This document shows, piece by piece, positions 33,378 to 36,343 of a stretch of DNA of 64,000 nucleotides. Numbering within the stretch: position 1 is the stretch's first letter; each line of letters starts with the position of its first letter. This DNA comes from Ascidiaceihabitans donghaensis (lineage in GTDB: Bacteria > Pseudomonadota > Alphaproteobacteria > Rhodobacterales > Rhodobacteraceae): the NCBI RefSeq assembly GCF_900302465.1, contig NZ_OMOR01000001.1:2294001-2358000 (forward strand). The letters run 5' to 3'. The translations under genes and the position numbers were made by a program. Below the pieces are notes generated by a model. The model saw only the letters and a list, made by a program, of their open reading frames with translations. It was not told the origin of the DNA and made no database searches.

Positions 33378-33701
33378 ATGCAACTGCCCCCAAAAGTCAC
33401 AGCCCGCGCATTTGAACGCCTTGCCGAAATTGGAGCCAACGATCAGGGCCAAGCCCTGCGTGTTGCTGTTGAAGGTGGCGGGTGTTCCGGGTTTCAATAT
33501 GAAATTGCGCTCGACACTCCGAAAGAAGATGATCTGGTGCTGGAAGGATCAGGGCAGAAAGTCATTGTGGACGCCGTGTCGCTGCCGTTCTTGTCAAATG
33601 CTGTGATCGACTTTTCAGAGGAGTTGATTGGTGCGCGTTTTGTGATTGAAAACCCGAATGCAACCAGCGCCTGCGGATGCGGAACTTCTTTTTCTATGTA
33701 A
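33378..33701 (+). CDS. erpA: Iron-sulfur cluster insertion protein (ErpA/IscA type)
   Basis: 107 residues of the HesB/IscA A-type carrier family with the three cluster-binding cysteines Cys36 (GGGCSGFQY) and Cys99/Cys101 (SACGCGTSFSM). It hands Fe-S clusters to apoproteins. The position opposite dgt is typical of Rhodobacteraceae. Its stop lies four bases from that of the leftward repeat-protein partner gene. Confidence 0.93.
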   Translation: MQLPPKVTARAFERLAEIGANDQGQALRVAVEGGGCSGFQYEIALDTPKEDDLVLEGSGQKVIVDAVSLPFLSNAVIDFSEELIGARFVIENPNATSACGCGTSFSM

Positions 33702-33705
33702 TGGG

Positions 33706-34770
33706 TTACGATGCGAAGCTAACGCGGGAAAATCCTTCAAAAAACACGTCGAATTCATCTATCGACTGTGCTGCAGATTGCAAGATCAAGTACCCATTTT
33801 CATCAACGGATTGTTCCAGAACAGGACGCATCTTATGCCAGTCCGCGCTGCGCGACCCTTCCATTTGAAACAAGCAGGCTGACATGCTACGCAGCGGACC
33901 CGCTGGCATTGCTGCTGCCGTCAAACGCATACGCCCTTCGGGGATTGTAACATTATGCGCAGTCCCTCCTTTAAGGCGAGACAGCCACCCGCAGACAAAA
34001 AACATGTGGTAGTCGTCAGCGACATCGACATTTTGGCCAGCTTGGACGTCAAAATCCGAAAGCGTTCGCATCACCCAATCTTCCCAAACCTGCGGGGGTG
34101 TTTGGTTTGCATACCGCAGTGCGATGCAGATTTCCGCCAACAGATCGGCGTTTTGATCGAGATAGGCCAAAATACCCGCAAACCGCAGTCCACGAATAGC
34201 ATTGTTGCTTAGTTTCGGATCACAACGCCCGTATTGTGAAAGGTAGAACACGATATGTGTCAGCTCATAGGCTGCTTTTTTGTTGGGCAAAGCAAACGTG
34301 TCCGCCCTATCGATAAATCGGTGCAACCGTTCCGTTAATCCTGTATCGTCTTTCAGGTCCACGCCGCGCCTTGCCAGTAACCGGCGGGCCTCAGCACGTT
34401 GTAAGTCTGACAATTCTGCTTCAGGCAGGCCTTGCGTTACCACCCAATCACACAAGCTTTCGCCTTGCGATCCGCCATACCCAAGGTCTTCCAAATCCAA
34501 GCAGATAGACAGTAAGAACCTGTAATATTGTGGGAAAAAGGCAATTCTTTGCTTTAGACCCGCGTAGAACGCTTGGTGGTTTTCCAAGGCGTTTGGCAAG
34601 ATGTCAGCCGTAGTGCATTCCAGAATATTCAATAATTCCGCATTCTCTTTTAGCCAAAACACATCGTCTGGCCCTCTGCGGTGCTGCCCGAAGCCTGCAA
34701 TCAAATGCGATATTTGATCTTGGTCCGTTTGGCGGCGTGCTGGCACGTTCAAAGTTACGATATTGGTCAT
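33706..34770 (-). CDS. Unknown helical protein, partner of the FSSGSAP repeat protein (possibly DUF6902)
   Basis: 354 residues, predicted soluble and mostly helical, without signal peptide or membrane segments. Notable blocks: ELLNILECTTADILPNALE, FFPQYYRFLLSICLDLEDLG, KKAAYELTHIVFYLSQYGR, ADDYHMFFVCGWLSRLK, and MSACLFQMEGSRSADWHKMR. I recall similar roseobacter proteins labelled DUF6902, but I am not certain. The ELTHIVFYLSQYG helix recalls all-alpha proteins seen near peptide biosynthesis genes; this is a weak impression. Three sampled 60-base lines run 38-43% GC, well below neighbours. The start has AAGGACACC upstream and follows the repeat gene by 46 bases, so they are probably one operon. 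Function unknown. Confidence 0.65.
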   Translation of the reverse strand: MTNIVTLNVPARRQTDQDQISHLIAGFGQHRRGPDDVFWLKENAELLNILECTTADILPNALENHQAFYAGLKQRIAFFPQYYRFLLSICLDLEDLGYGGSQGESLCDWVVTQGLPEAELSDLQRAEARRLLARRGVDLKDDTGLTERLHRFIDRADTFALPNKKAAYELTHIVFYLSQYGRCDPKLSNNAIRGLRFAGILAYLDQNADLLAEICIALRYANQTPPQVWEDWVMRTLSDFDVQAGQNVDVADDYHMFFVCGWLSRLKGGTAHNVTIPEGRMRLTAAAMPAGPLRSMSACLFQMEGSRSADWHKMRPVLEQSVDENGYLILQSAAQSIDEFDVFFEGFSRVSFAS

Positions 34771-34816
34771 AATTCAGGTGTCCTTATGTGACTTCAAACG
34801 TGCCAAAGCGTGGGGG

Positions 34817-35209
34817 TTAAGACCCTGACGAGAACATCTCGGTCGCGTCGCCTGTCACTTGCGATGTGGTAACTGGCGCGGACCCTGACGAAAACATTTG
34901 CACGGCTTCACCGCGTGACGCATCAGATGACATGACCGGCGCCGAGCCCGAAGAAAACATCTCGACAGCATCGCCAGTCAAAGACATCGACGCCAGATTT
35001 GGTGCAGATCCGGACGAAAACAACCCGGTTTCAGCGCCAGTTGTCATCGTCGGCGCAGAGCCGGAAGAAAACGCATCACATAGATCTCCGGTCAGCATTT
35101 CAGAGGCAGACGGGGCCGAACCAGATGAAAACATTTCAACGCCTTCGCCAGCAAAAGCAGCGGTATCGATCAAATCGAATTGAAGGTCGGATTTGCGCAG
35201 TGCAGTCAT
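34817..35209 (-). CDS. Six-repeat FSSGSAP protein, candidate multi-core precursor peptide
   Basis: 130 residues: a 25-residue leader (MTALRKSDLQFDLIDTAAFA, then GEGVE) and six cores beginning at Phe 27, 47, 64, 85, 106 and 126. Five cores read FSSGSAP; the last stops at FSSGS, the very C-terminus. Each core is usually preceded by TG(D/E)AxEM, with spacing 20, 17, 21, 21 and 20 residues. Ser and Gly codons differ from core to core (Gly as GGT, GGC, GGA, GGC, GGG, GGG), so the peptide, not the DNA, is conserved. There is one Cys (44), no transmembrane helix and no classical signal peptide. GGAAG precedes the ATG. I vaguely recall a roseobacter family of this kind (DUF6749), function unknown. 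A multi-core peptide precursor is the leading hypothesis; a self-assembling or secreted repeat protein is the alternative. Confidence 0.8.
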   Translation of the reverse strand: MTALRKSDLQFDLIDTAAFAGEGVEMFSSGSAPSASEMLTGDLCDAFSSGSAPTMTTGAETGLFSSGSAPNLASMSLTGDAVEMFSSGSAPVMSSDASRGEAVQMFSSGSAPVTTSQVTGDATEMFSSGS

Positions 35210-35560
35210 TGTAAACTTCCTTTTTGAGGTTGGTTTGAATGTCTCTTTGCTTGCACGTTAAAGGAGAGTGTTAAAAGAAAAATACAGTTAATAATTGATT
35301 AATGCGTACATTTTTCTACTTTATGTAACACGCATAATTATATGTTTTTACTAGTTATTAATGGCTTATATCCTGATTTCAAAAAACTTTAATTAATCAA
35401 AATGAGCGGGTGTGTATGCCTCAACTCATGTCAAATTAAACAACTTTAAGATGTATTTTCCCGTTAATAGATTCTTTATCGGCGAATCTGTGAAGACACG
35501 CCCCTTGCCCAATCCATCGACTTCGGCGATAGCTTCAGTGCCACTGCAGGGAGCGACCAA
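35210..35560. other. AT-rich divergent intergenic region
   Basis: A 351-base gap without a gene between the FSSGSAP gene and xth. Bases 35281-35340 are 23% GC and 35341-35400 are 20% GC by direct count, against about 50-60% in flanking genes. It contains several TTAA/TAAT runs and must carry the promoters for both divergent genes. Such AT content fits xenogeneic-silencer or nucleoid-protein binding and horizontal origin, but neither is shown. Confidence 0.7.
35337..35342 (-). promoter_or_regulatory. Candidate -10 element for the FSSGSAP operon
   Basis: On the minus strand a perfect TATAAT lies about 128 bases upstream of the FSSGSAP start codon in the AT-rich gap. The hexamer 17 bases further upstream is a poor -35 match. 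In a region this AT-rich the match may be chance. Confidence 0.3.
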
Positions 35561-36343
35561 ATGAAAATCGCCAGTTTCAACATCAACGGTATCAAAGCGC
35601 GCATAAATGCACTTCCCGAATGGTTGGATGAAGCGCAACCAGACGTGGTCGTCTTGCAAGAGATCAAGTCCGTCGATGAAAACTTCCCGCGCGAGCTGTT
35701 TGAGGATCGCGGCTATAACGTCGAAACCCACGGTCAAAAGTCTTTCAACGGGGTTGCCATCCTGTCAAAACTGCCCCTCGAAGACGTCACACGCGGATTG
35801 CCCGGCGACGACAGCGACGAACAAGCGCGTTGGATCGAAGCAACGGTTATGGGCGATCACCACCCCTTGCGCGTGTGCGGCCTGTATTTGCCAAACGGCA
35901 ACCCTGCGCCCGGTCCGAAATACGACTACAAACTGGCTTGGATGCAGCGCCTACAAAATCGCGCCGAACAGCTGATGGCGGAAGAAATGCCTTTTTTGAT
36001 GGCGGGCGATTACAACATCATCCCACAATCCGAAGATGCCGCCCGCCCAGAAGTCTGGACAGAAGACGCCCTTTTCCGGCCCGAAAGCCGCACAGCTTTT
36101 CGTAAATTGATAAACCTTGGTTTGACGGATGCGTTCCGCGCTCGTGATCCGCGGCCCGGTCAGTATTCCTTCTGGGATTATCAGGCAGGGGCATGGAACA
36201 AAAACGACGGCATCCGCATCGACCACTTTTTGCTCAGCCCCACATGCGCCGATACATTAACCAATTGCGCCATTGATAAAGACATCAGAGCACGGGAAAA
36301 GCCATCTGACCACGTGCCCATTTGGGTCGATCTGGCGATCTAA
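35561..36343 (+). CDS. xth: Exodeoxyribonuclease III
   Basis: 260 residues of the exonuclease/endonuclease/phosphatase fold, an AP endonuclease and 3' exonuclease in base excision repair. Motifs: FNINGIKARI, catalytic Glu in VVLQEIKS, GDYNIIPQ, RIDHFLLS, and the His in EKPSDHVPIWVDL. AGGGAG precedes the ATG. The 3' end overlaps the convergent monooxygenase gene by four bases. Confidence 0.95.
   Translation: MKIASFNINGIKARINALPEWLDEAQPDVVVLQEIKSVDENFPRELFEDRGYNVETHGQKSFNGVAILSKLPLEDVTRGLPGDDSDEQARWIEATVMGDHHPLRVCGLYLPNGNPAPGPKYDYKLAWMQRLQNRAEQLMAEEMPFLMAGDYNIIPQSEDAARPEVWTEDALFRPESRTAFRKLINLGLTDAFRARDPRPGQYSFWDYQAGAWNKNDGIRIDHFLLSPTCADTLTNCAIDKDIRAREKPSDHVPIWVDLAI

Follow-up and report, generated by a model that had tools for sequence, protein, structure and literature searches.

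A multi-core repeat gene and its DUF6902 partner as a candidate short-peptide cassette in Rhodobacteraceae

A locus of Ascidiaceihabitans donghaensis raises the question of what a small protein built from six near-identical motifs does together with the larger protein encoded beside it. The locus occupies positions 33706–35209 of the window, the 64,000-nucleotide stretch of contig NZ_OMOR01000001.1 that was analysed (Table 1). From the letters alone, it had been proposed that the pair follows the plan of multi-core RiPP precursors, with a leader, repeated cores and a dedicated partner.

As the original prediction stated, the first gene encodes a 130-residue protein with six cores, and a 354-residue partner follows on the same strand after 46 nt. 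FSSGS starts at residues 27, 47, 64, 85, 106 and 126, and AP follows five of the six copies, the sixth stopping at residue 130, the C-terminus. We number the core positions 1 (Phe) to 5 (the last Ser). The repeat periods are 20, 17, 21, 21 and 20 residues; the proposed separation of 17–21 residues therefore holds as a period, whereas the gap from one FSSGS to the next is 12–16 residues. The proposed 25-residue leader needs a similar adjustment, as 26 residues precede core 1 and their GEGVEM is already part of repeat unit 1. The TG(D/E)AxEM-like spacer described before each core was recovered in part: a Gly lies six residues upstream of the core in all six copies, but the form G(D/E)(A/G)x(E/Q)M is present in only four, copy 2 reading GDLCDA and copy 3 GAETGL.

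A chance origin of the repeats was rejected, since among 20,000 residue shuffles of the precursor FSSGS appeared once in 154 and twice in none; the most frequent 5-mer in 5,000 shuffles never rose above four copies. The codons vary among the copies while the peptide is kept, as had been noted: pairwise comparison at the five core positions gave 53 synonymous and 0 non-synonymous differences. The partner matched the Pfam family DUF6902 (PF21843) over its full length (residues 1–349; E 9.2e-157; 521.9 bits, cut-off 27).

Table 1. Features of the cassette and its surroundings in the window
Feature	Position	Strand	Basis
Multi-core precursor gene, 130 aa	34817..35209	−	ORF list; relatives also compared
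Core 1, FSSGS	35117..35131	−	Core mapping on precursor
Core 2, FSSGS	35057..35071	−	Core mapping on precursor
Core 3, FSSGS	35006..35020	−	Core mapping on precursor
Core 4, FSSGS	34943..34957	−	Core mapping on precursor
Core 5, FSSGS	34880..34894	−	Core mapping on precursor
Core 6, FSSGS, exact C-terminus	34820..34834	−	Core mapping on precursor
Partner of 354 aa matching DUF6902 and DUF6895; proposed to modify the precursor	33706..34770	−	Pfam; conserved residues; profile match
GTGCAAGC element, conserved before precursors in many relatives	35249..35256	−	Upstream comparison; position from sequence
AGAAAAA element, conserved before relatives' precursors	35311..35317	−	Upstream comparison; position from sequence
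ErpA-like gene, usual downstream neighbour, outside cassette	33378..33701	+	Neighbour survey
xthA-like (exonuclease III) gene, divergently oriented on the upstream side as is usual, outside cassette	35561..36343	+	Neighbour survey

The precursor and DUF6902 genes are linked

Among 295 sampled genomes of the window's family, Rhodobacteraceae, 82 carried DUF6902 and 71 had a precursor match, with 70 of these 71 also carrying DUF6902 (Fisher 6e-54, genomes being treated as independent). The lone precursor match without DUF6902, in G183, was weak (E 7e-4) and lay in a 624-aa frame. Conversely, a window-type precursor was matched in 70 of the 82 DUF6902 genomes and not in the other twelve. The repeat gene and its partner therefore co-occur, a point that the original prediction had set as a check on itself. 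The named relatives were labelled Rhodobacteraceae, Paracoccaceae or with roseobacter genera, a few just Rhodobacterales or Alphaproteobacteria. Of 337 genomes sampled across the class, only four lay above the DUF6902 cut-off, all in the window's family, and one further genome gave a weak DUF6895-like match; a plasmid collection searched for DUF6902 gave no match.

We assembled DUF6902 loci from the best 80 of 308 relatives, a selection biased to close relatives, and from the 82 positives of the 295 genomes. After identical DUF6902 proteins were removed and close strains kept, a multi-copy precursor with 2–20 copies was found upstream in 134 of 140 non-redundant loci, the window included. The gap between the two genes was 16–168 nt, except in L012 (342 nt) and L158 (491 nt). 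Six loci had no core by our rule: one contains masked bases (L031), two end with their contigs (L163 and L164), two have no precursor that we found beside DUF6902 (L145 and L162), and the divergent L161 has, by eye, two YIAGL-like cores, neither of them with Ser at position 3.

The cassette was also detected in another class of the same phylum, where three genomes of one genus carried DUF6902 and EamA, a transporter gene described below; one of four genomes in this genus had no DUF6902. A precursor was visible in two of the three, DUF6902 lying at a contig end in L267 with the precursor region out of view. The L266 precursor (DUF6902, E 2e-102; EamA, E 2e-12) reads GEGTELF-GCYT, GAGTELL-GCYT and GAGSELY-GCYT, so that position 1 is F, L and Y. 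The cores of L277 are GCYA, GCYN and GCYK, and since position 5 varies, the product boundary may differ in this precursor. The EamA proteins encoded downstream in all three genomes were 37–43% identical to roseobacter EamA.

Core tetrapeptides change in concert between precursors

We compared core positions in 129 precursors with at least three copies, the rule being to keep a copy only if it had one mismatch or none. Identity at positions 2, 3, 4 and 5 was 1.00, 1.00, 0.99 and 0.99 within precursors (2,444 divergent-spacer pairs from 128 precursors) and 0.38, 0.75, 0.40 and 0.43 between them. Because the one-mismatch rule inflates within-precursor identity, the comparison was redone with units picked solely by a G.....F anchor, which covered 123 of the 134 precursors. 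The tetrapeptide was then identical in 93.0% of pairs within precursors versus 11.1% between them. A single tetrapeptide was present in 105 of these 123 precursors; the 18 with more than one were in part true mixtures and in part stray anchor matches.

On a FastTree phylogeny of DUF6902 (136 of 140 loci, selected by length), the 132 tips with a core label bore 41 tetrapeptide types and required at least 61 changes (mean 92 with shuffled labels), indicating that whole arrays have switched together repeatedly. Free drift of the cores, which the original prediction had named as evidence against itself, was not seen, as the copies within a precursor change in concert, although their number ranges from 2 to 20. 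Core codon differences over all precursors were 5432 synonymous to 32, a ratio inflated by selecting copies under the one-mismatch rule.

Position 1 does not belong to this uniform block: its residues were F (863), Y (29), M (11), L (9), V (8) and C (5), a few of them mis-registered. Gly occupied position −6 in 96% of copies. Position 3 was S in 0.86, T in 0.11, C in 0.02 and N in 0.01 of cores, and the precursor ended exactly at core position 5 in 93 of 134 (L138 is off by one residue in the core register of this survey). As the tetrapeptide is kept in almost all copies of a precursor but changed in all copies together between species, positions 2–5 probably represent the product, and position 1 may serve as a recognition or cleavage residue. 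Uniformity within precursors also allows the boundary of the product to be tested before any chemistry is known.

Several arrays had a composition of their own. Two tetrapeptides occurred in L053, L067, L075, L085, L108 and L045 (e.g. SSGS at the ends and STSC inside), the Ruegeria-type precursors L053, L067 and L075 mixing SSGS and STSC; such precursors suggest that one gene might yield two products. Compact 8-residue units (FTSGLVQM-FTSGL) stood beside 20/21-residue units in L015, L020, L030, L083, L104 and others, with 35 such spacings, and some arrays consisted of nearly perfect tandem copies.

An EamA transporter gene is associated with the cassette

Of 139 non-redundant loci, 104 had an EamA transporter gene after DUF6902, in the same orientation. 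Among the 137 loci with 400 nt or more of downstream sequence, 33 lacked it, those of the window's genus included. Its extrapolated start lay −24 to +51 nt from the DUF6902 stop in 100 of the 104 loci, with ATGA or GTGA overlapping that stop in 95, and the four examples tested (L040, L077, L186 and L266) matched PF00892. The presence of EamA changed 13 times on the DUF6902 tree, and no EamA match was found at 25 xthA loci without the cassette (about 1.5 kb on each side, some cut by a contig end). The original remark that no exporter is visible holds for the window cassette, which has no EamA gene after DUF6902, but not for the system. The nearest EamA of the window genome, encoded elsewhere, is probably a different transporter, as it is just 30% identical. 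The EamA-less cassette lineage comprises the window locus and L033 of the same genus.

The cassette contains no protease gene. Its outer neighbours in the window are genes that we read, from their sequences, as ErpA-like and xthA-like; in most relatives, EamA lies between DUF6902 and the ErpA-like gene. The cassette sits at a fixed site in most loci: with redundant and short loci counted, 146 of 162 had xthA no more than 2.5 kb upstream and 136 had erpA downstream. In 25 genomes without DUF6902, erpA was still near xthA in 18.

Upstream regions were compared for 125 of the 134 precursors (seven had no chosen ATG and two were too short). The exact box TGTGGATAA occurred in 74 of them, at 107–114 nt before the ATG in 52 and at 160 nt or more in 16, and was found in reverse orientation in twelve regions; the background was 23 occurrences on both strands of 1,487,696 nt of flanking DNA. 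L042 and L022, for instance, have the box about 110 nt before the ATG. Of the 24 assessable cassette-less genomes, none had it in the 500 nt upstream of xthA, L234 having a one-mismatch site and L256 having been dropped because its xthA is cut by the contig start. The box was also absent upstream in L266 and L277 of the other class and in the window, where the best match has three mismatches and GTGCAAGC and AGAAAAA are present. A second, GTGCAAGCG-like element nearer the ATG was found with at most two mismatches in 70 of the 125 regions, 55 of these at 40–50 nt. Consensus folding of the conserved upstream block gave no RNA structure; a sigma-70 scan gave no promoter-like site, and terminator-like matches were near chance. 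We take TGTGGATAA to be the complement of the DnaA-box consensus TTATCCACA, which raises the suggestion of DnaA control of the cassette; for a peptide cassette, this would be unusual if true.

Partner homology, proposed mechanism and related systems

Besides DUF6902, the window partner matched DUF6895 (PF21836), over residues 31–229 only (E 2.1e-21; 77 bits, cut-off 23.8). A DUF6902 profile of 108 proteins, comprising the window protein and 107 of 131 distinct sequences chosen by hand, aligned with a profile of six DUF6895 proteins over 136 columns at about 15% identity (probability 96.1, E 2.9e-9). The two families have the motifs Y-x-x-T-H-x-x-x-Y-x-x-x-x-G and D-x-x-x-E in common and, outside the aligned stretch, a conserved Tyr-His further on; the conserved residues of the window protein are Y168, T171, H172, Y176, G181, D209, E213, Y254 and H255. 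A sequence search of solved structures returned one chance-level match for the window protein (E 1.3) and none for either profile. In Pfam and NCBIfam, the partner matched no known dehydratase, cyclase or transferase and no peptidase family. With only 7 supported independent pairs over 618 column states, a search for enzyme residues that track core position 2 (S or T) had no power.

The literature search returned no paper on DUF6902 and, among the matches listed, none on a roseobacter multi-core RiPP. In the papers searched, DUF6895 came up in the title of a reference in PMC13352647, that of a report by Shi et al. (2026, ACS Catal), according to which it is a lasso-peptide epimerase family. 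The original observation that no known modification-enzyme motif is visible is amended to this extent, the partner belonging to one superfamily with an epimerase reported in that title.

The DUF6895 genes have contexts of their own. Seven of them directly follow a small precursor-like ORF, in L182 (7593–7850, +), L183 (8907–9338, −), L184 (7494–7910, +), L220 (6747–6953, +), L221 (5602–5862, +), L222 (5548–5904, +) and L188; L187 and L223 are not counted among them. These ORFs have a common-looking leader (..SGIINxxxTLDQLLE..), several contain aromatic-rich stretches such as GPWYIYK, GPWFVLAG and WTFVSPNYVYKG, and they look like a second, distant precursor type. Six weaker DUF6895 matches (L268–L273) had no recognisable precursor and lay in other gene contexts, suggesting that the superfamily does more than the peptide cassette. 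L272 (2681–4375, +) joins a DUF6895-like domain with a D-aminopeptidase domain (Peptidase_M55) in one protein, and L273, which looks alike, probably does so too; the L272 fusion would fit, though not prove, a link to D-residues. The DUF6895 protein of L268 (1076–2287, +) weakly resembles the C-terminal domain of squalene-hopene cyclase (E 0.0015, below the Pfam cut-off), from which one may guess that the superfamily has an alpha/alpha barrel fold.

With the linkage, the concerted cores, the exporter association and the partner homology established by sequence comparison, we consider it likely that the system makes a multi-core modified peptide. The plan of leader, repeated cores and dedicated partner survived both the co-occurrence and the core-drift tests, and the original RiPP reading, supported in part, has become firmer and more precise. 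With regard to RiPPs, a gene-encoded precursor with leader and core is present, its core boundaries being drawn from conservation, as is a dedicated co-occurring gene, whose modification of the precursor we infer. In the proposed mechanism, G-[DE]-x-x-x-x-[F] of each repeat unit would serve for recognition, and the four residues after it (SSGS in the window) would be the product. DUF6902 would bind the repeated motif in the cytoplasm and modify every core there, most likely by epimerising one core residue with no change in mass; Ser/Thr at position 2 or 3 are the candidates in the window. A housekeeping protease would cut after the bulky position-1 residue and before A/G-P, giving several copies of one short peptide, which EamA, coupled in most relatives, would export; in the EamA-less lineage, including the window genome, either another export route would be used or the peptide would stay inside. 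We give about even chances to the window pair being a precursor and modifying enzyme of a RiPP-like system that works by this mechanism overall, and slightly less to epimerisation as the chemistry of DUF6902.

The same multi-core plan may be served by another chemistry of DUF6902, such as dehydration of Ser, Thr or Cys, cyclisation, side-chain addition or an acyl shift. Nearly all cores have Ser, Thr, Cys or Asn at position 3, as would be expected of a reacting side chain, and the active site is left unconstrained by any sequence match to a solved structure. This reading is nevertheless a clear second to epimerisation, given the absence of dehydratase, cyclase and transferase matches in the window protein, the invariant residues common to DUF6895, an epimerase by the cited title, and the YIAGL-like cores of L161 that, by eye, have no Ser at position 3.

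It is unlikely that the repeat protein stays unprocessed and binds DUF6902 via FSSGS-like motifs, as a multivalent scaffold, decoy or regulator. A last copy at the free C-terminus in 93 of 134 precursors does resemble C-terminal recognition motifs. Binding motifs, however, usually tolerate variation between copies, whereas positions 2–5 are almost invariant within a precursor and yet switched at least 61 times between lineages, and an EamA transporter typically adjoins. Slightly less probable still is a role of DUF6902 as a peptidase, or as a processing factor that binds peptides, in which case the repeats would be cut and their residues left unmodified. The cassette is otherwise without a protease, the conserved His, Asp, Glu and Tyr-His could make a hydrolase site, and the residues at position 1 (F/Y/M/L/V/C) resemble the P1 preference of chymotrypsin-like enzymes; the window protein, however, matched no peptidase family, and its DUF6895 relative is titled an epimerase. 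Finally, a neutrally expanding tandem repeat without function was rejected as scarcely credible, because despite copy numbers of 2–20 and some nearly perfect tandem arrays, copies with divergent spacers keep the core by synonymous changes (53:0 in the window; 5432:32 overall, the latter rule-biased) and linkage to DUF6902 is near perfect.

If the modified-peptide reading is right, the cassette is a minimal and widespread one (82 of 295 family genomes) that searches for known RiPP enzymes would miss, and it looks like an undescribed way to make short modified peptides. DUF6902 would gain a function, and there would be a candidate peptide epimerase with natural substrates that carry their specificity in their own sequence. 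A possible peptide language would come into view in roseobacters, for which cultured hosts are available; Ruegeria pomeroyi SZCCDBG043 (L075) and Phaeobacter marinintestinus UB-M7 (L044) are examples that have all of the cassette. A more speculative extension, to which we attach little confidence, is a new ribosomal peptide class of species-specific tetrapeptides, probably with a D-residue, with DUF6902 as the only maturase, EamA as exporter and expression tied to replication where a DnaA-box-like site is present, acting as species-specific signals. If true, Gram-negative marine bacteria, namely roseobacters and one lineage of another class, would have a pheromone system based on short peptides.

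Lasso peptide clusters comprise genes for a precursor, a B-type protease and an asparagine-synthetase-like cyclase. By neighbour identities, the usual neighbours of the DUF6902 cassette are xthA and erpA/dgt or EamA, and the B-type protease and the cyclase are not among them. DUF6895 proteins resemble DUF6902 in detectable homology, in the invariant T-H, Y, G, D and E and in the small precursor-like gene before seven members; DUF6902 cassettes differ in their 2–20 short cores with a G[DE]xxxxF motif and in having EamA, not lasso genes, as the usual third gene. In PMC10406935, MslH is described as a calcineurin-like metalloenzyme that epimerises the C-terminal Trp of a ribosomal lasso-peptide precursor. 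Epimerisation of a residue in a ribosomal precursor is likewise what we propose for DUF6902; the Pfam matches of the window protein included no calcineurin-like family, and the DUF6902 profile gave no PDB sequence match. Multi-core RiPP precursors combine a leader, near-identical cores and spacers with an adjacent modifying gene. The window cassette has all of these, the last as a candidate, but matches no known RiPP enzyme class and has no dedicated protease, and its core is just four to five residues long. Yeast alpha-factor-like pheromone precursors carry many copies of a species-specific short peptide between spacers; the repeat plan is the same as that of the cassette, by analogy only, the yeast system being eukaryotic and differently processed.
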